From contig NZ_JAGQCW010000002.1 in NCBI RefSeq assembly GCF_024346395.1, forward strand, positions 248,001-312,000: a DNA stretch of 64,000 nucleotides. Direction: 5' to 3'. Shown here in pieces: positions 20,833-59,771 of this stretch. This stretch comes from Cyanobium sp. AMD-g (GTDB lineage: Bacteria; Cyanobacteriota; Cyanobacteriia; PCC-6307; Cyanobiaceae). How positions within the stretch are numbered: the stretch's first letter is position 1; every line of letters begins with the position of its first letter. Under the pieces are notes generated by a model, which worked only from the letters and a program-made list of their open reading frames with translations, was not told the origin of the DNA and did not search any database. A program made the translations under genes and the position numbers.

Positions 20833-21662
20833 TGATCGTCATGGGCGAAACGCCGATAGAGAAAGTCGAGCGCGTGGTTGCGGTAGTCGTAATACTCCGG
20901 CATTTCCATCAGCTGGGCCCGCTGACGGGGTCGCGGGAAGGGCAGCTCGAGGATCTCGCCGATCGTCGCCGCCGGGCCATTGGTCATCATCACGACCCGA
21001 TCGGCCAGGAACAGGGCCTCATCGATGGAGTGGGTGATCATCAGCACGGTCACCTTGTGCTCCTGCCAGATCTTGAGCAGCTCCTCCTGCAGCTCCTCCT
21101 TGGTGATCGGATCGAGGGCGCCGAACGGCTCATCAAGGATCAGCACCTTCGGCTGCAAGGCCAGGGCCCGGGCGATCGAGACCCGTTGCTTCATCCCCCC
21201 GGACAGGCTGCCCGGTCGCTTGTCGGCCGCCTCACTCAGCCCCACCATGGCCAGGTGGCTCTCGACGATCCGGCTGGCGTCGCCGTTGCGTTTGAGATGG
21301 GGAAACACGTTGTTCACCGCCAGGGCCACGTTCTCGGCGGCCGACATCCAGGGCAGCAGGGAATAGTTCTGAAACACCACCATCCGGTCGGGGCCGGGTT
21401 CGCGGATCGGCACCGATTCCAGCCGCACCTCTCCACTGGTGGGCTGGCCGAAGCCCGATACCAGGTCGAGCAGGGTGGATTTGCCGCAACCGGAATGGCC
21501 GATGACGCAGATGAATTCGCCTTCCGCCACCTCCAGGCTGATGTTGTCGAGCACGGTGTAAGGCCCCTTCGGGGTGGGATACACCTTGCTGACGCCATCG
21601 ATCACCAGGAACGGTTCATTGGAAACGGCTTGGCTGGACGGGGCCGACGTCAGGGTCTGCAT
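20829..21662 (-). CDS. nrtD: Nitrate/nitrite ABC transporter ATPase NrtD
   Basis: ATPase subunit of 277 residues on the cytoplasmic face of the nitrate importer. Walker A GHSGCGKSTLLDLVSGF (about 56-72), signature GSLSGGMKQRVSIARALA, Walker B VLILDEPFGALDP and the H-loop region MITHSIDEAL are all intact. No receptor-like C-terminal domain, which distinguishes it from NrtC. It overlaps the Crp-like gene by 4 bases and lies 33 bases after nrtC. Confidence 0.93.
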   Translation of the reverse strand: MQTLTSAPSSQAVSNEPFLVIDGVSKVYPTPKGPYTVLDNISLEVAEGEFICVIGHSGCGKSTLLDLVSGFGQPTSGEVRLESVPIREPGPDRMVVFQNYSLLPWMSAAENVALAVNNVFPHLKRNGDASRIVESHLAMVGLSEAADKRPGSLSGGMKQRVSIARALALQPKVLILDEPFGALDPITKEELQEELLKIWQEHKVTVLMITHSIDEALFLADRVVMMTNGPAATIGEILELPFPRPRQRAQLMEMPEYYDYRNHALDFLYRRFAHDDQ

Positions 21663-21695
21663 GCAGGCGAAGGGGGATGGGGAAGCGAAGGGCCG

Positions 21696-23693: not shown

Positions 23694-23695
23694 GG

Positions 23696-24529
23696 TCAGG
23701 CGGCTCCTTTGCTGAGCTTGCGCCCGGCGAAGGCGACAAGGCGATCAAGGAGCAGACCGACAATTCCCACATAGATGATGGCCAGAATGATCTGACTGGA
23801 GCTGGCATCGCCTCCGGCGTTGTAGGCATCCCAGATGAAATAACCAATGCCGCCATCAGCCTTCAGCATTTCGGCGGCGACGATGGCCAGCCAGGCCAGG
23901 CCGACGGCGATGCGAAGACCAGCGAAAACGTAGGGGATGGTGGCAGGAATGACAATATCTTTAATGTAGGCATTTTTGGGAAGTTTCAGAACCCTGGCGA
24001 CATTGATGTAATCTTCGGGGATTTCTCGAATGCCAATCGCTGTGTTGATGATGATCGGCCAGATCGCCGTGATGAAAATCACAAAGATGGCCGATGTGGT
24101 GGAATCCTGGAACACCATCAGCGTGATGGGAAACCAGGCCAGAGGTGGCACGGTTCGCAACACCTGAATCACAGGATCGAAGCCTTTGCCGAGGAATCGA
24201 TTCATCCCCAGGATGCCGCCAAGGGTGATTCCGACAATGGCGGCAAGTCCGTATCCCATGGCCACCCGCTGCAGCGAGATCAGGATCTGCCAAGCCAGGC
24301 CCTTGCTGGTGCCCCCATCATCGAAGAAGGGATGGATGATGTAGGGATCCCAGGTGTCGACGATGACATTGATGGGGCCTGGCAGTCGGCCGACGCCCAG
24401 GACCAGGGAAACAAGCTGCCACACCACAAGAAAGGTGCCGATGCAGATCAGATAGGGGGACACCCGGGAGACCCAGATCGGCGTGATCCTCTTGGACTGG
24501 TTGTGTGGTGCTACTGCGCTGAGGGCCAT
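23696..24529 (-). CDS. nrtB: Nitrate/nitrite ABC transporter permease NrtB
   Basis: Inner-membrane permease of 277 residues with about six helices of the BPD_transp_1 fold. The cytoplasmic EAA-type loop is around INVARVLKLPKNAYIKDIVI (about 170-190), which contacts the NrtC/NrtD ATPases. Start, SD region and spacing fit the operon: 57 bases after nrtA and 2 bases before nrtC. Base composition is more AT-rich than the flanking genes in the first half, which may only reflect membrane-protein codon use. Confidence 0.93.
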   Translation of the reverse strand: MALSAVAPHNQSKRITPIWVSRVSPYLICIGTFLVVWQLVSLVLGVGRLPGPINVIVDTWDPYIIHPFFDDGGTSKGLAWQILISLQRVAMGYGLAAIVGITLGGILGMNRFLGKGFDPVIQVLRTVPPLAWFPITLMVFQDSTTSAIFVIFITAIWPIIINTAIGIREIPEDYINVARVLKLPKNAYIKDIVIPATIPYVFAGLRIAVGLAWLAIVAAEMLKADGGIGYFIWDAYNAGGDASSSQIILAIIYVGIVGLLLDRLVAFAGRKLSKGAA

Positions 24530-24586
24530 GGGGGAACGGTTGGAGGTGGCAGGGTGAAGAGGTCTTGGTGGGAAACCTCTTCAGCT

Positions 24587-25900
24587 TCAGGACATGGCCT
24601 TGATCTTCAGCCCATCGAGATAGGCCTTGGGATTTTCCGGGTCGAAGACGACGCCGTCAAAGAAGGTTTCCTTGCCGCGCGAGTCACTGGCCGGAATGGC
24701 CTTGTCCTGCCCTATCGCCTTGGCCGCCTCCTTCCAGAGATCGGCGCGGTTGACCTGGTTCACCAGGGCGTCGATGTCGGTGCTGGCGGGGAGATAGCCC
24801 CAGCGCATGTCCTCGACGACGAACCACTGGTCGTGGCTCTTGAACGGGAAGGAGGCGTTTTCGCTCCAGAAGCGCATGCGATAAGGGCTGTCGGTCACGA
24901 CACGGCCGTCGCCGTAGTCGAAGTTGCCGGCCAGGCGTGGTTTGATGTCGGCCACCGAGGCCTTGAAGTACTTGTCCTTCGAGGTGATTTCGCAGAGTTC
25001 GTCGAGGTTGGCGGGGTCTTCACACCACATCTGGGCTTCCAGGACCGCCTTCAGCAGGGCCTGGGTGGCCTTGGGGTTCTTCTCCACCCAGTCGGCGCGC
25101 ATCGAGAAGGATTTCTCGGGGTGGAACTTCCAGAGTTCCCCGGTGACCGCAGCGGTGTAGCCGAGCTTTTTGTTGACGAGGCGCTGGTTCCAGGGCTCGC
25201 CGACGCAGAAGGTGTCCATGGTGCCGGTCTGCATGTTGGCCACCATCTGGGGCGGGGGGACCACCACCAGGTCGGCGTCCTTGTTGGGGTCGATGCCGTT
25301 GGCGGCCAGCCAGTAGCGCATCCACAGGTCGTGGGTGCCGCCCGGGAAGGTGACGGCGGCCTTGAACTTCCTGCCGGTCTTGGCCGTGGACGCCACGGCA
25401 TCGGCGAGCCCGGCCTTGTTGTCGATGGTGAGCTTGTTGGCCAGGAAGTCTTTCGAGACCGACAGGCCCTGTCCCTGGAGATTCAGCCGGGCCAGGGTGG
25501 CCATCGGCAGCGGCTGTTTGCTCTTGGTGATCTTGCCTGCCGCCAGCAGCAGCGGCATCGGCGTGAGGATGTGGGCGCCCGCAATGCCGCCGCCGGCTTC
25601 ACCCAGCTCCAGGTTGTCGCGGGTGACGGCCCAGGAGGTCTGCTTCATCACCTTCACCTCCGGCATGCCGTGCTTGGCGAAGAAGCCCTTCTCCTTGGCG
25701 ATGATCAGCGGGGCGGCGTCGGTGAGGGCGATGAAGCCGAGGGTCACCCCGGGAACTTCAGGCGCATCGGCGCCACCACCGGCCGGGGCGGGGGTGGGGG
25801 CGGCCGCCTCCTTGGTGCCGCCACAGGCACTGAGCCAGATGGCGCCTGCCGTGGTGCCGGCGGCGGTGATCAGAAACTTGCGACGGGAAAGATTCGACAT
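24587..25900 (-). CDS. nrtA: Nitrate/nitrite-binding lipoprotein NrtA
   Basis: Periplasmic, membrane-anchored receptor of 437 residues that captures nitrate and nitrite. The N-terminus has a twin-arginine-type motif (SRRKFLITAAG) and a lipobox (WLSACGG, cysteine near 26), then a P/A/G-rich linker and the CmpA/NrtA solute-binding fold (GFIALTDAAPLIIAKEKGFF, WMRYWLAANGIDPNKDADLV, VGEPWNQRLV). It is the first gene of nrtABCD-crp. The leader 25901-26077 holds a small hairpin but no clear GTA-N8-TAC NtcA box that I could find. Confidence 0.93.
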   Translation of the reverse strand: MSNLSRRKFLITAAGTTAGAIWLSACGGTKEAAAPTPAPAGGGADAPEVPGVTLGFIALTDAAPLIIAKEKGFFAKHGMPEVKVMKQTSWAVTRDNLELGEAGGGIAGAHILTPMPLLLAAGKITKSKQPLPMATLARLNLQGQGLSVSKDFLANKLTIDNKAGLADAVASTAKTGRKFKAAVTFPGGTHDLWMRYWLAANGIDPNKDADLVVVPPPQMVANMQTGTMDTFCVGEPWNQRLVNKKLGYTAAVTGELWKFHPEKSFSMRADWVEKNPKATQALLKAVLEAQMWCEDPANLDELCEITSKDKYFKASVADIKPRLAGNFDYGDGRVVTDSPYRMRFWSENASFPFKSHDQWFVVEDMRWGYLPASTDIDALVNQVNRADLWKEAAKAIGQDKAIPASDSRGKETFFDGVVFDPENPKAYLDGLKIKAMS

Positions 25901-25936
25901 GGAGCCGGAGGGAGAGCCAGAGAGGACCGGAGGAAG

Positions 25937-25950
25937 GCACCTTCGGGTGC
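25937..25950 (-). promoter_or_regulatory. Tetraloop hairpin in the nrtA leader
   Basis: GCACC and GGTGC are perfect arms around a 4-base loop (TTCG on plus, CGAA on minus), 36 bases upstream of the nrtA ATG. In the mRNA it would form a compact stem in the 5' leader. A regulatory role is unproven. Confidence 0.3.
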
Positions 25951-26077
25951 AGTTGTTCTCAGGACGGGCCTCACAACAAAGGGCACCGTGCTGGTGAAGA
26001 TTGGTTGGGCTGGCGCGCAGGCTGACCAGACACGACTAAAGAGACCACGGCGATGGTCCCCTTAAGAGTCGCGACGG

Positions 26078-27211
26078 TTACCGATTCAGAAGTTGCCGGC
26101 GCAGCCGTTCGCCGCTGCGGGCCAGAAGCAGGCCCGTGGCGCGTTCAAGGGCCTCCTCAAGTCGCTCGAAGCGCCCGGCGAACCACAGGTAGGCGGCCAC
26201 GTTCCAGCGCAGCGCCGGCATCAGGGCGCCTTCGCCACAAAGGGCCGCCAGGGCCTGCGAACGCCACAGTTCCAGGCTTTGCCAGGGCACCTCGGCGCTG
26301 GTGATGCCGTGGTCGCGGGGGTGGAGCAGGATCCGCTCGGGCACTCCCTGGCGCACCCGGGCCGTGATGCCGGCACGTGAGGTGGGCAGGTCGGTGGAGC
26401 CCTCGAGCCCCTTCACCGTCAGCAGGTCGGTTTCCCCGCAGTCCTGCAGGGCCTGCCAGGCACGGGTCTCCGTGGGGGGATGGACGAAGCCGCTCACCAG
26501 CAGGTGCTGCCCACGGTGCGGCGTCCACAGCAACTCCAGACTCGCCACCGGCGGTCGTTTGCCGATGGCATCGCGCACCGGCACCAGCCTTTCGGCCAGG
26601 GGGAAGTGGTCGGGCTGGTGGGTGAGGGCCAGCCCGTGGCGGTCGAGGCGCTGTTGGACGTCGCTGAGCGACAGCCCGGTCGAGGGGATGCCGATCGACT
26701 CGAACAGCTCGGCCAGGGTGACACCGAATTTGACCGGCATCGGGTCGCCGCCGTGCAGCACCACCGGCAGGTCGTCGCTGGCCAGCACCAGGGCCACCAA
26801 TGGCAGCAGGGGGGCGGTGCGGCTGCGGCCGTCGTAGGGCACGCCGAAGCAGAGCGGTCGTCGGCCGGGTGTTTCCAGGACCGGGCCCCAGCGGCGGTAG
26901 CTGTCGAGCATCCCGGAGAGCTCGATCGGGTGGGGGCGGCGGATGCGATGCGCGATCAGGAAGGCCCCCATCTGGGCGTCATCGACCTGGCCCTGGAGCA
27001 TCAGGTCCATCGCCACACCGGCCTCCTGCCGATCCAGGCCGGTGCTGGTGTGTTCGCCGCTGCCCACCTTGCCGATCAACTCGCGGAAGTGGGACCGCTC
27101 GGGGCCGAGCGCCCGCAGGCGGACCAGGCGCCGATCCTCTGCTGGCGGCACCGTTGTCTGCAAGGTGGCGTCGGGCCCCAGGCTGGCCGGTTCTGGTAAC
27201 AGTGGCGACAT
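26078..27211 (-). CDS. TrpD2-like (anthranilate phosphoribosyltransferase-related) protein
   Basis: Protein of 377 residues with the anthranilate/nucleoside phosphorylase fold: helical N-terminal part (DLMLQGQVDDAQMGAFLIAH) and a glycosyltransferase-3 domain (FGVPYDGRSRTAPLLPLVAL, VVLHGGDPMPVKFGVT). The PRPP-binding GTGGD signature of true TrpD is not seen, so a role in tryptophan synthesis is doubtful; this matches the TrpD2/YbiB group, some of which bind nucleic acid. Located between nrtA and nirA, divergent from nirA. A broken second copy of the gene lies at about 35.9-36.2 kb. Confidence 0.75.
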   Translation of the reverse strand: MSPLLPEPASLGPDATLQTTVPPAEDRRLVRLRALGPERSHFRELIGKVGSGEHTSTGLDRQEAGVAMDLMLQGQVDDAQMGAFLIAHRIRRPHPIELSGMLDSYRRWGPVLETPGRRPLCFGVPYDGRSRTAPLLPLVALVLASDDLPVVLHGGDPMPVKFGVTLAELFESIGIPSTGLSLSDVQQRLDRHGLALTHQPDHFPLAERLVPVRDAIGKRPPVASLELLWTPHRGQHLLVSGFVHPPTETRAWQALQDCGETDLLTVKGLEGSTDLPTSRAGITARVRQGVPERILLHPRDHGITSAEVPWQSLELWRSQALAALCGEGALMPALRWNVAAYLWFAGRFERLEEALERATGLLLARSGERLRRQLLNR

Positions 27212-27383
27212 GGGAGGACGGCTCCATGCCGGAAACTAAACCCTTCTTGATCGGTGGGTCTGCGCAGCTTTCTCTGGCGCTCCCCGACAAACGATCCTTC
27301 CGGTCGACGCAGCTCTCACCGGCGTCCCGGCATCCGCCGACCCCTCCACGGGTTGCTTGCGTCCTCCTGCCAGGCAGGGATCC

Positions 27384-27405
27384 TCCGCATGGCCGGCCAT
27401 GCGGA
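27384..27405. promoter_or_regulatory. 22-bp perfect palindrome at the nirA start
   Basis: A 22-base perfect palindrome with left arm TCCGCATGGCC lies 13 bases before the ATG at 27419 and contains the in-frame ATG at 27389. It is placed where a repressor or a translation-blocking hairpin would act. It does not match the NtcA consensus. Confidence 0.5.
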
Positions 27406-28996
27406 CCACCGTTTTCGCATGAACAGCACCGACACCAGCACCGAGCTCACCACGCCGCCAGCGCCCAGCCTCAGCAAGGTGGAACAGGCCAAGGCCGAAC
27501 TCTGCGGCCTGGATCTGGCCCCCCGGCTGGCGGAGCTGGCGGCGGCGGGCTGGGACAGCCTGGATGAGGCCACCCTGACGATCCGGTTGAAGTGGCTGGG
27601 GATCTTCTTCCGCCCCGTCACCCCCGGCCGCTTCATGGTGCGCCTGCGGCTGCCCAACGGCGTGATCCGGGCCGAACAGCTGGACGTGCTGGCCGATGCG
27701 GTCGACCGCTGCGGCGAGCACGGCAGCGCCGACATCACCACCCGCCAGAACCTGCAGCTGCGGGGCCTGTTGCTGGAGGACATGCCACCGCTGCTGGCGG
27801 AATTGGAGCGGGTTGGTCTCACCAGCCGCCAGTCGGGCCACGACAACCCCCGCAACATCACCGGCAACCCCCTGGCCGGCCTTGACCCGGAGGAGCTGAT
27901 CGACACCCGGCCGCTGGTGGACGCCATCCAGGCCCGGCTGCTGGCCGAAGGCGGCCCCCGCAACCTGCCGCGCAAGTTCAACGTGGCGGTGGGCGGCGCC
28001 CCCGACAGCTTTCTGCTGCACAACGATCTCGCCTTCCTGCCGGCGCCCCACCCGCAGGATCCGGCCGCGCCGCTCGGTTTCACGGTGATGGTGGGCGGCT
28101 TCTTCTCGGCCCAGCGCAACGAGCTGGCCGTTCCCCTGGGCCTGTGGCTGCGGCCCGACCAGCTGCCCGATTTCACCCTGGCCCTGCTGCGGCATTACGA
28201 CGCCCACGGCAACCGGGTCCAGCGCAACAAAAGCCGGCTGATGTATCTCATCGATGGCCTGGGGCTGGAGGCCTACCGAGCCGCCGTTGTGGCGGCCGAT
28301 CAGGAGCTGGCCGGGGATTCAGCGCCGGCGCCCCTGCCCCACGATGGCCGCCATCTCGTGGTGCGGGCCCCGCGCGACGGGCTGGGCCTCCAGGCCCAGA
28401 AACAGGCGGGCCTGCATTGGGCAGGGCTGCACGTGCCGATGGGGCGCCTCGACGCCGCCTCCATGTTCGAGCTGGCCCGACTGGCCGGCTCCTACGGCAG
28501 CGGTGAGCTGCGCCTCACCGAGGCCCAGAACGTGCTCCTCGTGAATGTGCCGACCGACCGCCTCGGGGCCCTGCAAGCCGAACCGCTGCTGGAACGGTTC
28601 CGCCTGGAGCCCGGCGCCCTGCAGGCCGAAGCGGTGAGCTGCACGGGCAGCCGCTACTGCAGCTTTGCCCTGATCCCCACCAAGCGCACCGCCCAGGCGG
28701 TGATCGAGGAGCTGGAGCGGCGGCTGGAGCTGCCCGAGGCGGTGCGCAGCCACTGGACCGGCTGCCCCAACGCCTGCGGCCAGCCCTACATGGGCCAGAT
28801 CGGCCTGATGGGGGCCAAGGCCCGCCAGGACGGCCAGATGGTGGAGGCGGCCAAGATTTTCCTGGGGGGCCGCCTGGATCAGGACCCGCAGCTGGCCGCG
28901 TTGCATGAGAAGGCGGTGCCCCTCTCCGAGCTCGCTGACGTGCTGGAAGGGTTGCTGGTGGAACGGTTCGGCGCCCGGCGCCGGGCCGCGTCGTGA
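27389..28996 (+). CDS. nirA: Ferredoxin-nitrite reductase
   Basis: Cytoplasmic siroheme/[4Fe-4S] enzyme reducing nitrite to ammonium. The cluster cysteines are in SCTGSRYCSFALIPTKR and HWTGCPNACGQPYMGQIG (near residues 425-470); RNLPRKFNVAVGG is the substrate-side arginine/lysine segment. ATG 27389 has AGGGA 8 bases upstream and gives 535 residues; ATG 27419 (MNSTDTST, 525 residues) has no such site but fits usual family length equally well. Siroheme is supplied by the chelatase and CobA genes at 36-37.6 kb. Confidence 0.94.
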   Translation: MAGHADHRFRMNSTDTSTELTTPPAPSLSKVEQAKAELCGLDLAPRLAELAAAGWDSLDEATLTIRLKWLGIFFRPVTPGRFMVRLRLPNGVIRAEQLDVLADAVDRCGEHGSADITTRQNLQLRGLLLEDMPPLLAELERVGLTSRQSGHDNPRNITGNPLAGLDPEELIDTRPLVDAIQARLLAEGGPRNLPRKFNVAVGGAPDSFLLHNDLAFLPAPHPQDPAAPLGFTVMVGGFFSAQRNELAVPLGLWLRPDQLPDFTLALLRHYDAHGNRVQRNKSRLMYLIDGLGLEAYRAAVVAADQELAGDSAPAPLPHDGRHLVVRAPRDGLGLQAQKQAGLHWAGLHVPMGRLDAASMFELARLAGSYGSGELRLTEAQNVLLVNVPTDRLGALQAEPLLERFRLEPGALQAEAVSCTGSRYCSFALIPTKRTAQAVIEELERRLELPEAVRSHWTGCPNACGQPYMGQIGLMGAKARQDGQMVEAAKIFLGGRLDQDPQLAALHEKAVPLSELADVLEGLLVERFGARRRAAS

Positions 28997-29003
28997 CGGG
29001 CTC

Positions 29004-29717
29004 GTGACCGCCGCTCTCGCCGCCTGGGATCCCCTGCAGTTGCCCGCCAGCGGCACTCCCGAACGCTGGCCCTGGCTGCAGGGTCTGCGGCGGTCGCAGG
29101 ACGTCGACCTGGAGCCCTGGCTGCAGGCGCTGGAGGGCGGCCGGCTGGTGCCCGCCCCGGATCTGCTGGGCGCCCTGGCGGAGCGGCTCGACGGCCCCGC
29201 GGCGGCGCGGCTGCTGGCCTGGTGGCTGGACGGGCCCGCCTCCGACCCCGCCCTGCTGGCCGTGATCGGCCGCCACCGCCACCCCCGCTCCCGGGCCCTG
29301 CTGCGGCAGGCCCTCGAGGGAGCCGGCGCCGGCGCCGGCCGGAGCGAGCTGTTGCTGCCGCTGCTGGGCCACCAGCGCGATCCCGACGATTTCGCGTTGC
29401 TGCGGCAGCGGGCCCTGGACCCCCTGCCCCTGCTGCAGCGCCGCGCCGCCCTCGAGGGCCTGGCGGTGGGGCTGGCGGCCTGGCCGGCGGCGCCCCTGCG
29501 GCAGACCCTGCGCCATCTCATCGGGGATCTCGATCCCGCCCTGGCGGCGACCGCCGTGGACCTGCTGGCCCGCCTGCCGGAGGGCCGTGGGGACCTGGCC
29601 GGCCTCGATCGGGGCCGGTTGGCCCCGGAGCTGGCCAGGCGGGTGGAACGGCGCCTCGCCGGGGCGGGTGTGGTCATGGCTGCCGGGCGATCATGGAGGT
29701 CACCCCAGCGCCCATGA
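29004..29717 (+). CDS. HEAT-like repeat protein downstream of nirA
   Basis: Protein of 237 residues starting at GTG 29004, 7 bases after the nirA stop, so certainly in the same transcript. The sequence is almost wholly alpha-helical, with repeated L/A-rich helical pairs (LLPLLGHQRDPDDFALLRQR, AALEGLAVGLAAWPAAPLR) that look like divergent HEAT repeats. No catalytic motif is visible. In other cyanobacteria a small gene next to nirA (nirB) is needed for full nitrite reductase activity; whether this is a counterpart is conjecture. Possible scaffold or assembly factor. Confidence 0.6.
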   Translation: MTAALAAWDPLQLPASGTPERWPWLQGLRRSQDVDLEPWLQALEGGRLVPAPDLLGALAERLDGPAAARLLAWWLDGPASDPALLAVIGRHRHPRSRALLRQALEGAGAGAGRSELLLPLLGHQRDPDDFALLRQRALDPLPLLQRRAALEGLAVGLAAWPAAPLRQTLRHLIGDLDPALAATAVDLLARLPEGRGDLAGLDRGRLAPELARRVERRLAGAGVVMAAGRSWRSPQRP

Positions 29718-48230: not shown

Positions 48231-48590
48231 TCAGTCAGCCCCGATCAGCTGGGCCTCGAGCCCCAGTTGCCGGGCGGCCCTCACGAACGGCTCATCCAGG
48301 CTGCAGCGGGTGGCGCCCCGTCCGGCGGCGATGGCCAGGTGCAGTGCATCGGCCGCCCTCAGCGTCGTGGTCCAACCACGCAGACAGGCGTCGGCATTGC
48401 GGCAGTCCTGGGGTTCCACCTCCAGCACCAGAAAACCTGGAGCCAGAGTGCGTTCAATGCCGTGCAGCACCGCCTCGGCCTGCGCGGGGCCCAGGGCCCC
48501 GGTGCGCACCTTGAGCCCGAGAGCGGAATGGAGCTCGGTGGCACCCCAGGCGCTGATCGCCAGCGGCACGCTGGTGTCCAGCTACAGCAT
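48231..48590 (-). pseudogene. vapC: VapC PIN-domain toxin interrupted by an amber codon at position 3
   Basis: ATG 48590 follows directly on the antitoxin stop (TGATG). Codon 3 is TAG (48584-48582), where VapC proteins usually have Tyr in MLYLDTSV; the frame then continues LDTSVPLAISAWGATELHSA to the C-terminal DALHLAIAAGRG and a normal stop. The remaining open frame starting at GTG (48569) would lack the first catalytic Asp (LDTS). PIN RNase activity should therefore be lost unless the stop is suppressed or is a sequencing error. Confidence 0.85.
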
Positions 48591-48838
48591 CAGGAGCCGA
48601 TGTCATCCCGCAGGGTGCGCATCGTCTCCACGCCGCTGGTGGCCTGATGGGGCAGGGAGTCCCGCAGGGCCTGGAGCTGGGGCAGGAGATCCCGCACCGT
48701 CTGCTGGGGAACCAGCTCAGCGATGGCTTTGCCGCGGCGGGTGATCACCACCGGCTGGCCTTGCTCCACGGCGTCGAGCAGGCTCGACAGCCGGGCCTTG
48801 GCCTCCGCCACCGTGTCCTGTCGCAAGGTGTTGGTCAT
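48590..48838 (-). CDS. vapB: VapB/Phd-type antitoxin
   Basis: 82 residues. Phd/YefM-like DNA-binding N-terminus (AEAKARLSSLLDAVEQGQPV, VITRRGKAIAELVP) and a toxin-binding helical tail. Would neutralize the PIN toxin and autorepress. ATG 48838 used; TTG 48850 is in frame. The start codon lies within a near-perfect palindrome, a likely autoregulatory operator. The antitoxin frame is intact though the toxin is not. Confidence 0.85.
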   Translation of the reverse strand: MTNTLRQDTVAEAKARLSSLLDAVEQGQPVVITRRGKAIAELVPQQTVRDLLPQLQALRDSLPHQATSGVETMRTLRDDIGS

Positions 48839-48851
48839 CACGATGACCAAC
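48830..48851. promoter_or_regulatory. Palindromic operator over the vapB start
   Basis: Ten-base perfect arms GTTGGTCATC and GATGACCAAC separated by 2 bases, covering the vapB ATG (48838-48836). Typical size and position for toxin-antitoxin autorepression. Confidence 0.6.
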
Positions 48852-48998
48852 GTTAGGGCGGCTCATTGGGCGGCCCCCCCCCTGCAGTAGTGGCCAAGGC
48901 GCGCCGTCTGTTCATGACCCCTCAGGCCACCAGCCGCGTCGGCGGCAGGGCCGGAGGGGAGATGCTGCCCTTGCAACTGCCAGCGAAAAAAGGCGAGA

Positions 48999-49432
48999 TC
49001 AGCTAAACAACGGCGTGCAGCTTTGCCGTATCCAGATCGAGAGTTCTTCAAGCACCTGATCACGCTGTGGAGGGGAGGTTTCTGCGAGCCGCCACAGGCG
49101 CTGCTCCGCCTCTTCATGGCGGGGCTTCCACTCAAACCCATTCGCCCGCAGCACCATCTTCACAGAGAAAAACGCCACCCGCTTGTTGCCATCGGGTAAG
49201 GGGTGGCCCTTGGCGAAGGCGTAGGCCACAACAGCAGCCAGAAGAGCGATGTCCGCCTCAGGCCTGAAGGTGTGGAATGCCAGGACTTCCGCCAGAGCGG
49301 TTTCGATCTTGCGTTGATCAGGCGTTGATCAGGCGTTACCTGGAGACCACCATGCCTGTTGATCGTCGCCGAATGGACCCGTGCAATCTCAACAGGGCCT
49401 GGGAGGATCAGGGCCCCAGGCGCAATCCTCAC
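48999..49432 (-). pseudogene. doc: Doc/Fic-type toxin frameshifted by an 11-bp tandem duplication
   Basis: GTG 49432 overlaps the antitoxin stop (GTGA). The frame reads RIAPGALILPGPVEIARVHS ... VTPDQ, then shifts. The unit GGCGTTGATCA occurs twice in tandem at about 49310-49332 (plus-strand view). Removing one copy restores a continuous Doc protein running through KIETALAEVLAFHTFRPEAD to the Fic-core motif HPLPDGNKRVAFFSVKM. In relatives Doc phosphorylates EF-Tu. The allele is inactive as read, but reversible by slippage. Confidence 0.85.
49310..49332. repeat. 11-bp tandem duplication inside doc
   Basis: Two adjacent copies of an 11-base unit (GCGTTGATCAG) followed by a partial third (GCGTT). 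Eleven is not a multiple of three, so copy number decides the reading frame of doc. Confidence 0.85.
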
Positions 49433-49722: not shown

Positions 49723-49766
49723 TGCCCGATGCCGGTTTCGAACCAGCGACATCCTGCTTGTAAGGC
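49723..49766. repeat. attL: displaced 3' part of tRNA-Val (44 bp)
   Basis: Identical over 44 bases to 59700-59743, the anticodon-to-3'-end part of tRNA-Val. Identity stops at 49767. This is the direct repeat created by site-specific integration. Confidence 0.92.
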
Positions 49767-49919: not shown

Positions 49920-50099
49920 TCAGCCCTTCAGTTCCTCGGCCAAGGCGAGCACGCAGCCCAGCACTTCCCCGAACTGTTAAGCCAGGTTGTCCCGCTCCGG
50001 GGATCCGACCGGGGTAGCGTTCACGCTGAGGCCCATGGCCTCTAGCCGCTGGCGCAGCTCAGCTTGGCGGGCACGGCGCGGGTCAGGCTCAGGCTCAGG
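49920..50099 (-). pseudogene. Decayed member of the MPEPDPRR small-protein family
   Basis: Minus strand reads PEPEPDPRRARQAELRQRLE, then NATPVGSPERDNLA, a TAA codon (49979-49977), and QFGEVLGCVLALAEELKG ending at 49920. It aligns end to end with the four other copies at 51.3-53.1 kb. No start codon remains and the internal stop replaces what is probably a Gln codon. Opposite strand to the others. Confidence 0.7.
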
Positions 50100-50817: not shown

Positions 50818-50996
50818 GGCCCGGGCAGACACCGCTAGCAGCACTGCCAGGCCCACCCTGCATCGACGCCCAACCCTCTCGGGTCGCCCTGCGGATCGGG
50901 AAGGCGAAGCGCCGCCGCAATTGAGACAAATAGCTAAATGCCTCACGTCTGCAGCATGTTCGTTCCAGATTGAAGGTGGCTCCTGCCTTCAACGCC

Positions 50997-51479
50997 ATGG
51001 ACACTAAGCACAGCCGGTTCTTGGCCTTGGCTGAGCTGCTTCTCGATGAGATCCATGCCACTACCGAAGTCCCTGCTACGGCTGAAGATGTGGCGGAGCT
51101 ACTTAGCAGAATGATTCTCACCATTGATGCCTTTCGTGTAGCTGGTGGCGATGTTCCAAGTTTTCTGGAAAAGACTGTCAGATTTATGGATGCCTATCAG
51201 GAAGTCGGCCAGGCCGTCTTGGCGTCACCCGTTACTCCGTCCAGTCCTGGCTGGTCTAAACCTGCCGGAGACACTGGGGACCATCCTCCCTTTCCCATGC
51301 CAGAACCAGATCCGCGCCGTATCCGCTTGGAGGAGCTTCGCCACCAGCTAGAAACTCTGGCCCGGCAGGTGCTGACATCACCGGTTGACTCGCTGGAGCG
51401 GGGCACCCTGAGTGAGCAGTTCCGTGAGCTTATGGATCATGTGCTGGTTCTGCGCAGGGAGCTTGAGGCTGACCCTTAG
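50997..51479 (+). CDS. Helical protein fused to a PEPDPRR-family domain
   Basis: 160 residues. Residues 1-75 are a helical region (SRFLALAELLLDEIHATTEV, SRMILTIDAFRVAGGD), then a P/S/G linker, then from about residue 101 a complete PEPDPRR unit (MPEPDPRRIRLEELRHQLET, SPVDSLERGTLSEQFRELMD, VLVLRRELEADP). An internal start at the MPEPDPRR methionine (51298) could also produce the short form. Start ATG 50997; TTG 50970 in frame. Confidence 0.6.
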   Translation: MDTKHSRFLALAELLLDEIHATTEVPATAEDVAELLSRMILTIDAFRVAGGDVPSFLEKTVRFMDAYQEVGQAVLASPVTPSSPGWSKPAGDTGDHPPFPMPEPDPRRIRLEELRHQLETLARQVLTSPVDSLERGTLSEQFRELMDHVLVLRRELEADP

Positions 51480-51632
51480 TCCGCCGGCTTCTGCCATCCA
51501 TCCCCTGAGCTAGCTAACTGAGCCGATTCTTCGCAGTAAGCCACCTTCCTGAGACGCAACTAAGCCGGCTTCGGCTAAGCCCGAGGCCCTGCAATGCTTC
51601 CGACCAGTCACCGCAAGCGATTTCAGCCCTAC

Positions 51633-51656
51633 TTGACGTCTAGTTGGAAACGTCAA
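51633..51656. promoter_or_regulatory. Inverted repeat upstream of the compact recombinase
   Basis: TTGACGT and ACGTCAA, 7-base perfect arms with a 10-base spacer, 31 bases before ATG 51688. A purine-rich GGAGGGAGG ribosome site follows. Likely operator/promoter. Confidence 0.4.
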
Positions 51657-51687
51657 CAGAGTGGAGGGAGGCAGAACGCTTCTTACC

Positions 51688-52278
51688 ATGCCGAAGACCG
51701 CCGGATCCGGCCAAGCCCGCACCCTCACCCCGGAGGAGCTGGACGCCCTGCTGGATGCTGCCCCCTCCCACACCTACCGGGCGTTGTGGTCGGTCATGCG
51801 CTTCACCGGCAGCCGTGTGAGCGAGACGTTGGCCCTGCGGTGGGGCGTCATCCACAGCGACCGGATCGTGTTCCGTGCTGCCGACACCAAGACACAGGGC
51901 AGCCGCGAGCCGATGGTGGGGGCCTCCCTGCGCGAGGAGCTGGGCGCCTACCGAGAATTCTGGACTAACAGACGTGGCAAAGCCCCCCAGGCTGCCGATC
52001 TAGTGTTCCCTTCCCCGAGGCTGCCCGGCCAACCGCTGACCCGTGCGGCTGCTGATCTGGCCCTGAGGACCGCGCTCAAGACCTTGGGTGATGCGTTCCC
52101 TTCCGGCGTAAGCCTGCACACCTTCCGCCGAAGTCTGGCCACGACGATGAGCCAGAGGGGGGCCAGCCTTAAGACCGTGGCGCGGTTCACCGGCCACGCC
52201 AACCTGGGCCAGCTCCAGAACTACATCGATGTCAGCCATGCAACTGAGGCCGCTGCCTTGGCCGTGATCGACGGATGA
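51688..52278 (+). CDS. Compact tyrosine recombinase
   Basis: 196 residues consisting almost only of the catalytic domain: Arg I in MRFTGSRVSETLALRWG, HTFRRSLATTM (HxxR), FTGHANLGQLQNYIDVSH with the second His and the nucleophile Tyr. The N-terminal core-binding and arm-binding domains are absent, as in some small phage, integron-like or transposon recombinases. Strong ribosome site (GGAGGGAGG). Not adjacent to either att site, so it is not the obvious integrase of the island. Confidence 0.82.
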   Translation: MPKTAGSGQARTLTPEELDALLDAAPSHTYRALWSVMRFTGSRVSETLALRWGVIHSDRIVFRAADTKTQGSREPMVGASLREELGAYREFWTNRRGKAPQAADLVFPSPRLPGQPLTRAAADLALRTALKTLGDAFPSGVSLHTFRRSLATTMSQRGASLKTVARFTGHANLGQLQNYIDVSHATEAAALAVIDG

Positions 52279-52335
52279 AGCCGTCTTCGATCACTCCCTT
52301 TAAGCTCCTTGGCGCTGACGACAAAAAGCGCATAG

Positions 52336-52479
52336 ATGGCTGAGCTGGAAAACGATCAGGCCCTCGCCCTCGCTGTCTGGCTGACCAGCTCTATCCACGT
52401 GGATGGCATTGATGCAGCCGAGAAGCTCGCAGAGGTGCTCGGCGTTGAGGGCTTGCTGGGCTTTGAGCCCGAGCCCTGA
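52336..52479 (+). CDS. Island small acidic protein, 47 aa
   Basis: MAELENDQALALAVWLTSSI then HVDGIDAAEKLAEVLGVEGL and FEPEP. Acidic, helical, unknown. Between the recombinase and the PEPDPRR tandem array, all in one direction. Confidence 0.45.
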   Translation: MAELENDQALALAVWLTSSIHVDGIDAAEKLAEVLGVEGLLGFEPEP

Positions 52480-52510
52480 TCACCCCTTGTGCCAATCCGC
52501 CTAAGGCCAC

Positions 52511-52771
52511 CTGCCATCGTTGGTAAAACGCGAGCCAGCGATGCCGGAGCCTGACCCCCGCCGTGTCCGCATGGTGGAGCTTCGGCGGCAGCTGGAAGTC
52601 CTCGCAGTGCAGGTGCTGGCCACCCCGATCGATTCGCTGGAGCGGGCTGCCTTGGATGAACTGTTTGTGGAGCGCCTGAAGCAGGTGCTGGATCTGCGGC
52701 TTGAACTCGAAAACTGACCCTCAGGCCGCTCTCCCACCCTGCTGCCATTGTTGGTACAACGCGAGTCAGCG
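52511..52771. repeat. Repeated 30-bp leader before two PEPDPRR genes
   Basis: 52511-52540 and 52742-52771 match at 27 of 30 positions (core GTTGGTA, then AACGCGAG, CAGCG) and each ends exactly at the ATG of a family member. They show that the array grew by tandem duplication of leader plus gene. Confidence 0.75.
52541..52717 (+). CDS. PEPDPRR-family small protein, copy C
   Basis: 58 residues: MPEPDPRRVRMVELRRQLEV, LATPIDSLERAALDELFVER, LKQVLDLRLELEN. Two amphipathic helices separated by a TP-x-DSLER turn; probably a helical hairpin or coiled-coil oligomer. No described family comes to mind. The gene follows a 30-bp repeated leader. Small size, repeated retention and conserved pattern argue that it is translated. 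Confidence 0.65.
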   Translation: MPEPDPRRVRMVELRRQLEVLAVQVLATPIDSLERAALDELFVERLKQVLDLRLELEN

Positions 52772-52948
52772 ATGCCGGAGCCCGACCCCCGCCGCACCCG
52801 TCTGGTCGAGCTCCAGGGGCAGCTCAATGAGCTGGCCCGGCTGGTGCTGGAAACACCGGTCGACTCGCCGGATCGGCCTGCCCTGGATCAGCATCTACTT
52901 CAGCGGTTGGAGCAGGTGCTGGCCCTGCGAGGAGATTTGGAAAGCTGA
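52772..52948 (+). CDS. PEPDPRR-family small protein, copy D
   Basis: 58 residues: MPEPDPRRTRLVELQGQLNE, LETPVDSPDRPALDQHLLQR, LEQVLALRGDLES. Same leader and same start context as copy C; 5 bases separate its stop from copy E. Confidence 0.65.
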   Translation: MPEPDPRRTRLVELQGQLNELARLVLETPVDSPDRPALDQHLLQRLEQVLALRGDLES

Positions 52949-52953
52949 GCCGC

Positions 52954-53130
52954 ATGCCCGAACCAGACTTCCGACGCACCCGCCTACAGGCCCTGCGCCT
53001 GCAACTGGAGCCCTTGACGCGGCAGGCCCTAGCGGCACCGGCCCATTCGCTGCAGCGGGCCGCCTTGAACTACCGGTTGATCGAAGTGATGTTGGCGGTC
53101 GTAGCCCTGCGCCAAGAACTAGAAGGCTGA
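52954..53130 (+). CDS. PEPDPRR-family small protein, copy E
   Basis: 58 residues: MPEPDFRRTRLQALRLQLEP, AAPAHSLQRAALNYRLIEVM, VALRQELEG. More divergent than C and D (PDF for PDP, AHSLQR for DSLER). It follows copy D with a 5-base gap, so it shares its transcript. Its end overlaps the convergent HTH gene by 12 bases. Confidence 0.6.
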   Translation: MPEPDFRRTRLQALRLQLEPLTRQALAAPAHSLQRAALNYRLIEVMLAVVALRQELEG

Positions 53131-53361
53131 TCCTGAGGCCGTGTGCTTCCGCGCCTCCCGCTTCGTCACCTTGCTCAGCTCTGCCGAACTGAGGAACCAC
53201 TGGGCCGGCGGCAAACCGCGCGATATTCTCGCCAGAACCGTGTCGCAGCTCAGTCCGTACGTCTCCGCCAGGCGGTTGAGGCTCACCGGCCGGCCGTCCA
53301 GCGCGAAGCGGGGAAGCCCATGCCCGCGCCACCAGATCGAGATCCGCACGGTCGAGGCCAT
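53119..53361 (-). CDS. Small helix-turn-helix-like island protein
   Basis: 80 residues. A beta-strand start (VRISIWWRGHGLPRFALDGR) then an HTH-like segment VSLNRLAETYGLSCDTVLAR, ending in basic KVTKREARKHTA. Resembles phage homeodomain-like regulators. ATG 53361 is 2 bases after the stop of the clamp-like gene, so co-transcribed. Confidence 0.6.
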   Translation of the reverse strand: MASTVRISIWWRGHGLPRFALDGRPVSLNRLAETYGLSCDTVLARISRGLPPAQWFLSSAELSKVTKREARKHTASGSAF

Positions 53362-54820: not shown

Positions 54821-55189
54821 ATGCAAGTTCAACAACTCCGCCGCTGCCCTGACAGCGTTTCCCGCCTGACTGTTCGCCTGGCTCTCCCCTTCAACGATGG
54901 CAGTAACGGCCTGCACGATGCCGAACTAGAGCAAGCCCTAGAGGCCTGCCAGACCATGGCCCAGAAGCTCGATTGCGACCTGCTGGAGATCAGCGGCGAG
55001 GCCGACCATTTCCACCTGCTGGTGGAGATCCCGCCCAACCAGTCTGTGGGAGGCATCGCGTACGCCATGAAAAAGGCTGTTGACTCGATGTTGCGAAAGC
55101 AGTTCCCCATGCACCCGCTTGGGAAGCAGCTCTGGAGCCCCACCTACACCGCGTTCACCACCGCCGGAGAGACGCCGGAGATCCAGTGA
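54821..55189 (+). CDS. Truncated IS200/TnpA-like (Y1) transposase
   Basis: 122 residues of the HUH Y1 fold: EISGEADHFHLLVEIPPNQS has the HxH metal site, then YAMKKAVDSMLRKQFP and LWSPTYTAFTTAGETPEIQ. It stops there, before the helix that carries the catalytic tyrosine, so transposition should not be possible. The atypical N-terminus and operon placement suggest a captured or domesticated copy. No flanking hairpin ends were identified. Confidence 0.7.
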   Translation: MQVQQLRRCPDSVSRLTVRLALPFNDGSNGLHDAELEQALEACQTMAQKLDCDLLEISGEADHFHLLVEIPPNQSVGGIAYAMKKAVDSMLRKQFPMHPLGKQLWSPTYTAFTTAGETPEIQ

Positions 55190-55310: not shown

Positions 55311-55442
55311 ATGAACGATGCCGCTACTGACAAGGCCAAAGGCACCATCCTGAAGGGCAAGGGCTGCATCTTGAAAGGCGGCAAACGCAGCATCCTGACC
55401 CCCAGAGCAAAGAAGGAGGCCGTCCTGACCGAGGAACCATGA
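55311..55442 (+). CDS. Island lysine/glycine-rich microprotein, 43 aa
   Basis: Imperfect repeats of K-G-x-I-L-K-G (AKGTILKGKGCILKGGKRSI) in a strongly basic protein; stop overlaps the next ATG (ATGA). Could bind nucleic acid or be a scaffold-like peptide; function unknown. Confidence 0.5.
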   Translation: MNDAATDKAKGTILKGKGCILKGGKRSILTPRAKKEAVLTEEP

Positions 55443-56521: not shown

Positions 56522-57646
56522 TCAGAGAGGCAGGTGGTAGAGGCAGATTGGGCGGCCGACTGGAGTGGGCTGTTTTTTCCGGCCGAGGTCCCCAGTCAGA
56601 AAGAGTTCAATGCAAACCCTTCTGACATGTTCAGCGTTGTGTCCAAGGGATTGAGCCAGATCCTTGGCGGATCTTGGGTAAGGCTCGGACGCCAGGTGCT
56701 CGAGGAGCTTGCCCTTGAGCTGTTGGCGTTTTGTGGGTAGCAGATCCCCATCACCGACGGACTTGAGCGTCCAGGAGAAGTCCTCGGGATTGCCTTGGAG
56801 GTTCCAGCGAGTGCCCTCCCTGCAGTTGCGTTTACCGAGACAGCCAAGTACGTAGTGATCCTCATGCTGTGGCTGTGCTGGCCGCCACATGCCCCAGATG
56901 TCCGAGACTGCGCCTCCTTGGGTGCCAGTGCCAGTGATGTCATGGACGGTGACACTGGAGCGGCTGCCGGATTCCGGTTTCTTGAGATGAGCGGCGATGA
57001 CCGCAAGAAGGTTGTTCCTGCTGGCGAGGGCGTTTAGTTCGTAGAGAGGATGCGAAAACTCTGCGTCTTTCATGCTGTGGGAGCCATGCGTCAGAAGGGT
57101 TGTGATGGAGTCCAGGAACACTGCTGCGTAGCCTTGGCCCTTGATCTGGGCCTTCAGGCGATCCATCTCAAGCCCATTCCAGCCTTGTTCGTCGGGAAAG
57201 AGGAATTCGATACCCTCTGTCTGAATGTCCATGATCTCCAGCTTTTCCGTCGCGTTCCGCCTGGATTCGTCGGCCTGAATGAACAGGACGCGACCTTTCT
57301 TCGTAGGCAGCTGGCCCATCAGGGGGAAGCCTTGGGCGATGGCTTCCGCAGCTCGATACATGAAGCTGGTTTTGCCGACGCCAAGCTCAGCAGCCAGCAT
57401 CACGGCATTGCCCTGGGCACCGAACTGGCTGATGGTCCAGGCCGTCGGGCTCCGATTCTGGCGAAGCTCAGCAACGGACTGGACTTTTCCTACTTCCGGT
57501 ATGGCGTCGACCTGCGGGGGCGTTCTTCGGTAGGGGACTTTTCCTACTTCCGATGTGGCGTGGGGGATTGGGCGCGGGTGTTGCCGCTGCCGCGCCTCCC
57601 ATGCCATCTGCTCCTCATACGTATCAAAGATGGGGACACCGTTCAT
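56522..57646 (-). CDS. RepA/RecA-fold replicative ATPase
   Basis: 374 residues. RecA-like core with Walker A AAELGVGKTSFMYRAAEAIA, LFIQADESRRNATEKLEI, Walker B AAVFLDSITTLL and AVIAAHLKKPESGSR, as in RSF1010 RepA-type and DnaB-like helicases encoded by plasmids and phages. A C-terminal winged-helix-like region (SAKDLAQSLGHNAEHVRRVC) may bind DNA. N-terminal codons contain two inverted GTAGGAAAAGT repeats encoding EVGKV. Start ATG 57646 (MNGVPIFD). Downstream of a 67-residue gene by 2 bases. Confidence 0.75.
   Translation of the reverse strand: MNGVPIFDTYEEQMAWEARQRQHPRPIPHATSEVGKVPYRRTPPQVDAIPEVGKVQSVAELRQNRSPTAWTISQFGAQGNAVMLAAELGVGKTSFMYRAAEAIAQGFPLMGQLPTKKGRVLFIQADESRRNATEKLEIMDIQTEGIEFLFPDEQGWNGLEMDRLKAQIKGQGYAAVFLDSITTLLTHGSHSMKDAEFSHPLYELNALASRNNLLAVIAAHLKKPESGSRSSVTVHDITGTGTQGGAVSDIWGMWRPAQPQHEDHYVLGCLGKRNCREGTRWNLQGNPEDFSWTLKSVGDGDLLPTKRQQLKGKLLEHLASEPYPRSAKDLAQSLGHNAEHVRRVCIELFLTGDLGRKKQPTPVGRPICLYHLPL
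57483..57547. repeat. Two further GTAGGAAAAGT repeats inside the RepA-like gene
   Basis: Minus-strand copies at 57493-57483 and 57547-57537, 54 bases apart, each preceded by GAA so that both encode EVGKV. Same core as the intergenic repeats 1 kb away. Confidence 0.6.
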
Positions 57647-57648
57647 CC

Positions 57649-57852
57649 CTAGACGCCTCCGTTGGCGAACGCAAGCCCGCGCCAAAGACTGACGATGTCA
57701 TCGTCAAGGCAATAGGTTTCGAACCACTGGAGGATGGTCGCGTAGTCTTGGCAGGGCCAGCCCCGACGACTGGCAGCCTTATGCATCTGCAGCAATTCCC
57801 AGGTGGGAACAGTGCCCTCCCTGAATCGGGGAGAATTCGGTAAGGTGTTCAT
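57649..57852 (-). CDS. Island hypothetical protein, 67 aa
   Basis: MNTLPNSPRFREGTVPTWEL then AASRRGWPCQDYATILQWFE. Helical; unknown. Same operon as the ATPase (2-base gap). May be a replication accessory by position. Confidence 0.5.
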   Translation of the reverse strand: MNTLPNSPRFREGTVPTWELLQMHKAASRRGWPCQDYATILQWFETYCLDDDIVSLWRGLAFANGGV

Positions 57853-57899: not shown

Positions 57900-58130
57900 T
57901 CAGACAGCCTCCGCTAGCTTCTTTCGCTGCAAGCGACCTCTATAGGCCAATGCCTCGGCGCAGGCAGGAACGTTCCAAACCCGAGCAGAGTTCTTGTATG
58001 GGCCAAAGCGAAAGTGAGTCCCTTCGACAAGAAAGCAGTCGCGGTCGGCGTAGCGCTTGAGCGTGTCTGCGCTCAAGCCCAAGGCAGCAGTGGCGTGCCC
58101 CGTGGGCAGCCAACGGTCATCAGTAGTCAT
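57900..58130 (-). CDS. Excisionase-like helix-turn-helix protein
   Basis: 76 residues: WLPTGHATAALGLSADTLKR is a MerR/Xis-type HTH, followed by FRFGPYKNSARVWNVPACAE with the typical wing. In integrative elements such proteins (AlpA/Xis) steer the integrase toward excision or regulate the element. Start ATG 58130. Interval 58131-58330 toward the integrase has no convincing gene. Confidence 0.7.
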   Translation of the reverse strand: MTTDDRWLPTGHATAALGLSADTLKRYADRDCFLVEGTHFRFGPYKNSARVWNVPACAEALAYRGRLQRKKLAEAV

Positions 58131-58330: not shown

Positions 58331-59626
58331 TCAAGCCCCGGAATGCTGGGGCAAAGTCACAGCCTTTGCCCGTACCATTCCTCGGCTGACAGCCTCATCA
58401 AGCGTTGCACTGTCGGTCCAATGGCCATAGTGAGCTGAGTGGGTCACCAGCGAGTGACGCATCAGTGCAGCTGTGGTCCTGGGGCTCAGGCCGTAGATCT
58501 CATGTGCCCGCAACGCATAGCCATGCCGGAAGGAGTAGGGCGATAGCTTCCCACCACAGGCAGCTGCCTCCTCCTTTAGCACTCTCCACGCAAGACGCCG
58601 CTCGAGGTATTGCCTGACGGCCAGTGCTGAACCCTTGTCGGTGTTCCCCAGAGGCGGGAGTTCGATCAAGCCGCTTTCAAGAAGGCGCAGCAGCCGGAGG
58701 CTTTCATCCGGCAGGCCCACAGGGTCAAGCCCGCTCACATCACCGGGCTTCGAGCAGCCCCTTGCCGTGCGTTTTTGGTAGTTGACCTGCAGCTTGTTTC
58801 CACTGACGCGGCAGTACTTCAGCTCCACCGGCCTCAACCCAAAGCATGCGAGAAGCCCCACGGCTAGCCGCCAGCGGGGATCGGGAATGCCCTCCAGTAG
58901 CCGAAGAAGCTGATGGTCTTTAACGGGTGTGGCTGGTTGCCTGGCGCTGCCCTTGGGCCTTTTCCCGACAAACGCCACCAGATCATCTGGAGGCAGCCAC
59001 CGGTCTGGGTGCCCGAGCTCGTTGACCGCATGCCTCAGGAGCTGAGCTGCGTGTTGGATGCGGATCTGCCGGCCTCGGCTCCCAGGTTCGCCCCCGTAGC
59101 GATCACACAGAGCAGCCAGCAGGGCCCGCCCATCGCGTGGGATGGGTCTGGTTCCCATTACGCCCTGCACCTGCCACATGATCGGCCGGTAGACCGCCTC
59201 AAACGTCGCGGCAGAAACGTCGCCAGTGTCCTCGACCTTGTGCTTCCTGAACCGCTCCACTAAGCCGGGCCAGTCGATCGCTCCCTGAACCGCAGCAGCT
59301 GGCGCTTGAAGCAGATCAGCCGCCTCCTTAAGCCCCAGACCCTGGCTCTCCATGCGGCTTCGGATCTCTTGCACCCTGACCGCTACCGCTGTCGCGGCCT
59401 CCGGGCTCCATGGCAGATCCAGCACCGCCGAAGACCTTGAGCCATCCGGGTAGCGGTGGGTCAGCTGGACGTGCCCATGGATCTCGCGAACGGTCCACCC
59501 GAAGCCATGCGACGTCTTCAGGAGCGCTCGCAGGCTGGCGACCCAGGGAGGAGGCATAGCGCCCATGAGGCAGTTGATCGCGTTCCTGCCCCCATTCTGC
59601 GCAGAACCGTGCGCATATTGCCCCAT
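58331..59626 (-). CDS. int: Tyrosine integrase of the island
   Basis: Up to 431 residues. N-terminal arm-binding-like strands (GWTVREIHGHVQLTHRYPDG), helical core-binding domain and catalytic domain with Arg I in LLACFGLRPVELKYCRV, HxxR as YSFRHGYALRAHEIYG, and ALMRHSLVTHSAHYGHW with the final His and Tyr. Position (74 bases from att inside the tRNA) marks it as the integrase. ATG 59626 would place a regulatory-looking TGCGCA repeat inside the gene, so ATG 59566 (MGAMPPPW) may be the true start. Confidence 0.9.
   Translation of the reverse strand: MGQYAHGSAQNGGRNAINCLMGAMPPPWVASLRALLKTSHGFGWTVREIHGHVQLTHRYPDGSRSSAVLDLPWSPEAATAVAVRVQEIRSRMESQGLGLKEAADLLQAPAAAVQGAIDWPGLVERFRKHKVEDTGDVSAATFEAVYRPIMWQVQGVMGTRPIPRDGRALLAALCDRYGGEPGSRGRQIRIQHAAQLLRHAVNELGHPDRWLPPDDLVAFVGKRPKGSARQPATPVKDHQLLRLLEGIPDPRWRLAVGLLACFGLRPVELKYCRVSGNKLQVNYQKRTARGCSKPGDVSGLDPVGLPDESLRLLRLLESGLIELPPLGNTDKGSALAVRQYLERRLAWRVLKEEAAACGGKLSPYSFRHGYALRAHEIYGLSPRTTAALMRHSLVTHSAHYGHWTDSATLDEAVSRGMVRAKAVTLPQHSGA
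59598..59615. promoter_or_regulatory. Island motif TGCGCA-N6-TGCGCA, right copy
   Basis: TGCGCA-GAACCG-TGCGCA, 85 bases inside attR and at the integrase 5' end. Also part of a 12-base palindrome (TTCTGCGCAGAA, 59595-59606). Confidence 0.5.
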
Positions 59627-59699
59627 TCATGCCTCAGCACGCCTGGGCAATCTCTGGTGTCAAGCCTGAGAAGCCCTGTGCTGGAGCGGGTTTTGCAAG

Positions 59700-59771
<72 letters not shown>

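Follow-up and report, generated by a model that had tools for sequence, protein, structure and literature searches.

Five related copies of a gene for a protein of about 58 residues lie packed into 3.2 kb of a 64,000-nucleotide stretch of the Cyanobium sp. AMD-g genome (hereafter the window), and this raises the questions of whether the copies represent a genuine protein family, whether they arose by amplification in this strain and what advantage such a protein might confer.

Five hairpin gene copies in the window

The initial annotation described five copies, A to E, of which A was decayed, B was fused to a helical domain and C, D and E formed a tandem array. When the whole genome was searched with copy C as query, exactly five places and no more were found, with E-values of 2.6e-16 for B, 7.9e-15 for D, 4.5e-10 for E and 1.9e-9 for A, and at such values chance similarity is excluded. 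All five copies were thus recovered in the states described, intact, fused and dying. Copies C (52541-52717), D (52772-52948) and E (52954-53130), all on the forward strand, each encode an intact 58-aa protein. Copy A (49920-50096, reverse strand) is a pseudogene in which the Met codon is replaced and a single in-frame TAA occupies a position that is Glu in relatives; its closest relative is an intact copy in locus L034 (contig G004:C1), with 82% DNA identity. Copy B forms the end of an ORF at 50970-51479 (forward strand) that comprises, in one frame, an N-terminal helical domain, a linker and a hairpin beginning at a Met codon at 51297, and the AlphaFold2 model of its product contains three low-confidence helices and a low-confidence linker without predicted helix ahead of the hairpin. 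The N-terminal domain occurs as a free-standing ORF in two other elements (L030 and L036) and the ortholog of copy B in genome G004 (B', locus L028) is itself free-standing behind a 47-aa gene, indicating that copy B is either a chimera or a gene with an internal start.

A 47-aa helical ORF (52336-52479, forward strand) lies just upstream of copy C, and its counterpart is kept directly 5' of a hairpin gene at L028, L029 and L030, so that the arrangement occurs in four loci. Comparison of the 47-aa ORF with that of L030 gave dN.06 and dS.58, consistent with purifying selection on this gene too. The constant position and the selection would fit a two-gene module in which the 47-aa and hairpin proteins act as a toxin-antitoxin or addiction pair, but a 47-aa neighbour is missing beside most family members, no likeness to a known toxin or antitoxin was seen in either protein, and we regard such a pairing as improbable. 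On the other side of the array, a gene for an 80-aa protein (53119-53361, reverse strand) is convergent with copy E and overlaps its end; it has the same place in an element of genome G006.

An undescribed family of small helical proteins

AlphaFold2 predicted copy C to be a helical hairpin (helices 6-27 and 33-57) with a mean pLDDT of 94, in agreement with the fold proposed earlier. When PDB and BFVD were searched for folds similar to this monomer, nothing matched at E < 0.001, a bare hairpin being too simple a fold to discriminate. With a profile built from the copies and their relatives, the family was detected in 27 of 400 Cyanobiaceae genomes and 8 of 59 genera, with carriers including Synechococcus sp. 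BO 8801, Cyanobium sp. N5-Cardenillas and Synechococcus sp. CCY 0621, and was almost absent from the rest of the phylum. Members are 55-63 residues long and have in common a core of two helices and a joining loop, SPER marking the beginning of helix 2. The MPEPDPRR N-terminus that had drawn attention to these proteins is typical of a close group, and distant members begin MDxRxxRLAELRxQL.

As had been suspected, no described family carries this signature, since Pfam, NCBIfam, PHROGs, PADLOC and PDB sequences returned no credible match; in particular, no described anti-phage or anti-defence family in PADLOC-DB or PHROGs was matched. No relative was found in IMG/VR or in phage or plasmid collections, which may hold few phages of such hosts, and two element genes searched in IMG/VR also returned nothing. 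Judged by sequence, the hairpin copies belong to a real and so far undescribed protein family.

Three known small helical proteins were compared with the family. Rop (Rom) is the RNA-binding four-helix-bundle protein of ColE1; it shares with the hairpin protein a length of ~60 residues, two antiparallel helices and a location on a mobile replicon, but it was not matched in the PDB sequence search and is not among the top Foldseek matches listed, and we use it as a structural analogy only. NblA (PF04485) is likewise helical, cyanobacterial and ~50-60 residues long; identity with NblA was rejected, as hhalign gave a probability of 0.1% and no NblA match was returned when 34 members were compared with Pfam, and NblA is absent from the window genome. 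The Exonuclease VII small subunit (XseB, PF02609) is also a small helical hairpin, and one family member matched it in NCBIfam at E 0.06, but the Pfam comparison of the members did not support this and the hhalign probability of 7.5% over 19 columns led us to reject it; a genuine XseB is encoded elsewhere in the window genome.

The most conserved residues are R7, R10, L11, L14, L18, L21, V49, L52 and E55, which lie mostly on a hydrophobic face and at the charged hairpin ends, and no feature of the protein looks catalytic. Most members are acidic, with pI values of 4.1-5.5 and one at 7.2, whereas copy E and its ortholog E' (L030 8142-8312) are strongly basic at pI 10.5. The earlier guess of a DNA-bridging factor is consequently not favored, nearly all members being acidic although E and E' are basic. 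An anti-defence or superinfection factor, guessed at alongside it, is possible.

Selection on the hairpin genes and age of the array

Nei-Gojobori estimates of dN and dS were obtained for pairs of related copies. Copy E differs from its ortholog E' in genome G006 (locus L030) by 20 synonymous changes and 6 nonsynonymous ones (dN.05, dS.64), and values for C and C' (dN.16, dS 1.0) and for B and B' (dN.07, dS.25) show the same dominance of synonymous change, indicating that the hairpin frames are translated and constrained. Substitution ratios are thus far from random, homologs are present in other islands and no known named family was matched, so that neither of the outcomes named in the initial annotation as refuting was seen. 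That the ORFs might instead be non-functional remnants persisting by hitchhiking is scarcely credible: copy A is dead, the start codon of a relative in genome G014 has changed from ATG to AGG and a relative in G236 carries stops, but synonymous changes dominate in all three ortholog pairs and intact copies are kept in several genera.

The family had also been described as expanding, with C and D as products of a recent tandem duplication. Such a recent, local and still continuing amplification in this strain would account for five copies within 3.2 kb and for the near-identity of the leaders of C and D, of which 27 of 30 bases were indeed counted as identical. However, the coding DNA of C and D is only 71% identical with dS 0.70, and dS between D and E is 1.28, so that C, D and E are old paralogs. 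In a tree based on a short alignment, E groups with E' (98/92; UFBoot 98) and B with B' (99/96; UFBoot 99), both pairs joining copies from different species, whilst copy A falls outside the B-E group beside L034 of G004, in a part where the short alignment leaves the deep forks open; the lineage of copy A is best represented in another species. Furthermore, the gene order of 47-aa gene, C, D, E and convergent 80-aa gene is repeated in the G006 element, which occupies a tmRNA site, and an array shared with a differently placed element of another species is not a recent expansion in the window genome. Neither the expansion nor the recent duplication is upheld by these data, and local amplification in this strain must be considered very improbable.

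The similarity of the leaders has a different explanation. The 30 nt immediately before the start codon of copy C (52511-52540, forward strand, with a dyad CGTT-N5-AACG) and of copy D (52742-52771, forward strand, dyad GTTG-N3-CAAC) differ at three positions, and the leader of C is 28/30 identical to that of the G014 relative, although synonymous divergence is high for both pairs (dS.7 and.9, respectively). Among C, D and the G014 relative, DNA further upstream of the leader is similar at chance level only and synonymous sites have pS values of.45-.52; leader and synonymous sites differed significantly by Fisher test (p 5e-5 for C/L029, p 2e-3 for C/D). Because the G014 relative has the same box behind unrelated DNA, the near-identity is attributed to constraint, which removes it as an argument for recent duplication. 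Among 42 genomes of the genus the box occurs in three places only, before copies C and D and the G014 relative, all hairpin family genes. A coding role from a TTG start was rejected, as the frame is broken in D' and the differences among C, D and L029 do not fall at third positions of the would-be codons. The natural reading is that the box represents a cis-regulatory site, and the constrained leader with its small dyad probably governs transcription or translation.

The copies lie in the cargo block of a tRNA-Val element

All five copies are contained in a 10.0-kb element integrated in a tRNA-Val gene and bounded by 44-bp att repeats. The attL repeat (49723-49766), at the distal end, duplicates 44 bp from the 3' end of tRNA-Val and is an exact direct repeat of attR (59700-59743), which lies inside the intact tRNA-Val gene (59699-59771, reverse strand). 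A tyrosine integrase gene (58334-59626, reverse strand; PHROG integrase, 2.3e-14) adjoins attR, and with a tyrosine integrase beside a tRNA gene and a duplicated tRNA 3' end the element has the features of a tRNA-integrated genomic island. Next to the integrase are a small helix-turn-helix-looking ORF (57903-58130, reverse strand) and a gene for a RepA/primase-helicase-like AAA_25 ATPase (56522-57685, reverse strand; Pfam, 3.3e-13). No AlpA or DUF3987 match was found in the element, nor any Rfam RNA except the tRNA.

Tycheposons are flanked by a tRNA, carry cargo and encode a tyrosine recombinase (PMC10872708), a general description that fits the window element. Together with PICMI-type satellites (PMC10803314), they resemble it in having a tRNA-associated site, a tyrosine recombinase, a replication-type ATPase and swappable cargo (PMC10872708, PMC10803314). 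Minimal satellites (PICMI; PMC10803314) share the integrase and replication-ATPase parts with the window element; of a PICMI-like set, the integrase and AAA_25 ATPase are present and the helix-turn-helix ORF is excisionase/AlpA-like by its position beside the integrase, matching a PHROG excisionase at only E 0.29.

The same tRNA-Val gene is occupied in the closed genome G002 too, by an element that matches the window at 86-90% identity in its flanks and its integrase-ATPase end, with 89% identity for the integrase and an 86%-identical block containing the ATPase gene as shared core. The window segment 49834-56288, which includes all five hairpin copies, is replaced in G002 by other genes (L147 4338-10448), with no hairpin gene among them; on reading, several of these appear to be distant relatives of the window genes outside the array. 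With the same element present in two species, this is a clear case of modular cargo replacement.

Further elements and the family as optional cargo

Five further att-bounded elements carrying the family, with repeats of 22-50 bp, were identified: in G004:C5 (11.5 kb), G004:C1 (12.0 kb, tRNA-Val), G010:C9 (9.5 kb, tRNA-Pro), G012:C15 (12.8 kb, tRNA-Val) and G006:C27 (11.3 kb, 18433-29689, an element situated between repeats at a permuted tmRNA gene). As had been anticipated, the family therefore has homologs in other islands, although these elements were found via the family and its presence in them is no statistic. Relatives of the integrase were found in 39 of 42 genomes of the genus; about 80 such relatives score E < 1e-20, and only four of these lie in family-carrying elements. 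As most integrase relatives reside in elements without it, the hairpin family is optional cargo.

This distribution bears on whether the hairpin protein regulates the element itself, acting on integrase, excision or replication, for instance as a Rop-like modulator of copy number or excision. The hairpin gene adjoins the integrase in G004:C5 and lies ~65 bp from an att repeat in G010:C9, a separate small integrase-like ORF adjoins it in three loci, the length of the protein is Rop-like, and the constrained leader with its dyad suggests tight regulation. Against this, the closest relative of the window element, at the same site and with the 89% identical integrase, has no hairpin gene, the same is true of most integrase relatives, and many members of the family occur where no element is recognised. 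We therefore view a regulator of the element as rather unlikely, whilst giving it more weight than the paired module considered above.

Copies outside elements adjoin genes for staphylococcal-nuclease-type (SNase) proteins, LuxR-type and AbrB-like regulators, resolvases, toxin-antitoxin systems and defence proteins. Defence genes found within 2.5 kb encode BrxL (L072, L076), PglZ (L084), type I restriction subunits (L070, L071), a type IIG enzyme (L039), AbiEii (L081) and a DUF499 protein, the last placed at L040 by reading of a tally. Such neighbours were present at about 8 of 37 non-element loci and at 1 of 26 random control loci from the same genomes, which gives a one-sided Fisher p of.048 with 8 loci and.079 with 7, the loci being partly related and the controls mostly core genome; the enrichment is weak and serves as a hint only. 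The SNase, LuxR-type, AbrB-like and toxin-antitoxin neighbours are also frequent and give no indication of a defence role.

A proposed role for the hairpin protein

The family is real and under purifying selection, its members in the window occupy a replaceable cargo block of an att-bounded element, and it recurs in several independent elements. As the best explanation we propose that it is an undescribed hairpin family carried as optional cargo by tRNA- or tmRNA-integrated elements of 9.5-13 kb and by other variable loci of Cyanobiaceae, and that its products self-associate, bind a partner protein and probably act in conflict; we put the probability of this reading as a whole at about one half. 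Two helices alone would hardly be stable, so the hairpin presumably self-associates, a Rop-like four-helix bundle being the simplest form, and the acidic C and D proteins may form mixed bundles with the basic E protein. Because the conserved residues fall mostly on the hydrophobic face and at the charged ends, the protein would bind a partner protein and not act as a catalyst. Its function probably lies in phage, element or defence conflict: since several non-element copies lie beside BREX, restriction-modification and abortive-infection genes, we infer that its benefit arises where host, phages and rival elements are in conflict. The absence of relatives from IMG/VR and from phage and plasmid collections would be unexpected for a phage-conflict factor and counts against this part of the proposal. 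A more specific version is doubtful: the diverged, oppositely charged paralogs (acidic C and D, basic E) might co-assemble into mixed helical bundles and block or retune a host defence complex (BREX or restriction enzymes) or a competing phage. They would then form a new class of counter-defence or exclusion factors that tRNA-integrated elements disseminate among picocyanobacteria.

Satellite-like elements of picocyanobacteria are little described, and the hairpin proteins provide, within such elements, a small-protein family that is defined, testable and measured to be under selection. Should a role in phage or element conflict be correct, the hairpin would represent a compact new factor; if not, the family would still serve well to mark some tRNA-integrated elements and the replacement of their cargo.

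Other genes of the elements

The G004:C5 element encodes a 1043-aa tail tape-measure protein (251468-254599; L028 9468-12599; PHROG, 4.6e-34). Elements of ~10-11 kb thus carry a tape-measure gene (G004:C5) and a tail-completion-like ORF (L147 5304-5726), with other obvious phage structural genes absent, and tail remodelling by a satellite is possible. Weak matches (E 0.01-0.03) of the hairpin protein to tail assembly chaperones were rejected, as the hairpin gene is downstream and not upstream of the tape-measure gene in the sole element that has one.

Within the window element, a 190-aa tyrosine recombinase with no domain other than the catalytic one is encoded at 51688-52278 and also beside hairpin genes at L033 7430-7996 and L087 7160-7729. 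A short repeat protein (ILDRFQGN / KGNILD) is encoded at 55311-55442 and in the same place at L147 9586-9750 and G004:C1 158641-158805. A single-ORF Y1 (IS200-like) transposase domain (54821-55189; Pfam, 1.3e-15) has the same place in G004:C1 (158935-159312), and because of this shared position in two elements it is perhaps domesticated rather than an insertion sequence. Just outside attL, at 48231-49229, are a PIN-like toxin with a Phd-like partner and a Doc/Fic-like ORF, a toxin-antitoxin-like set, and the Doc/Fic-like ORF has a larger relative in G002.
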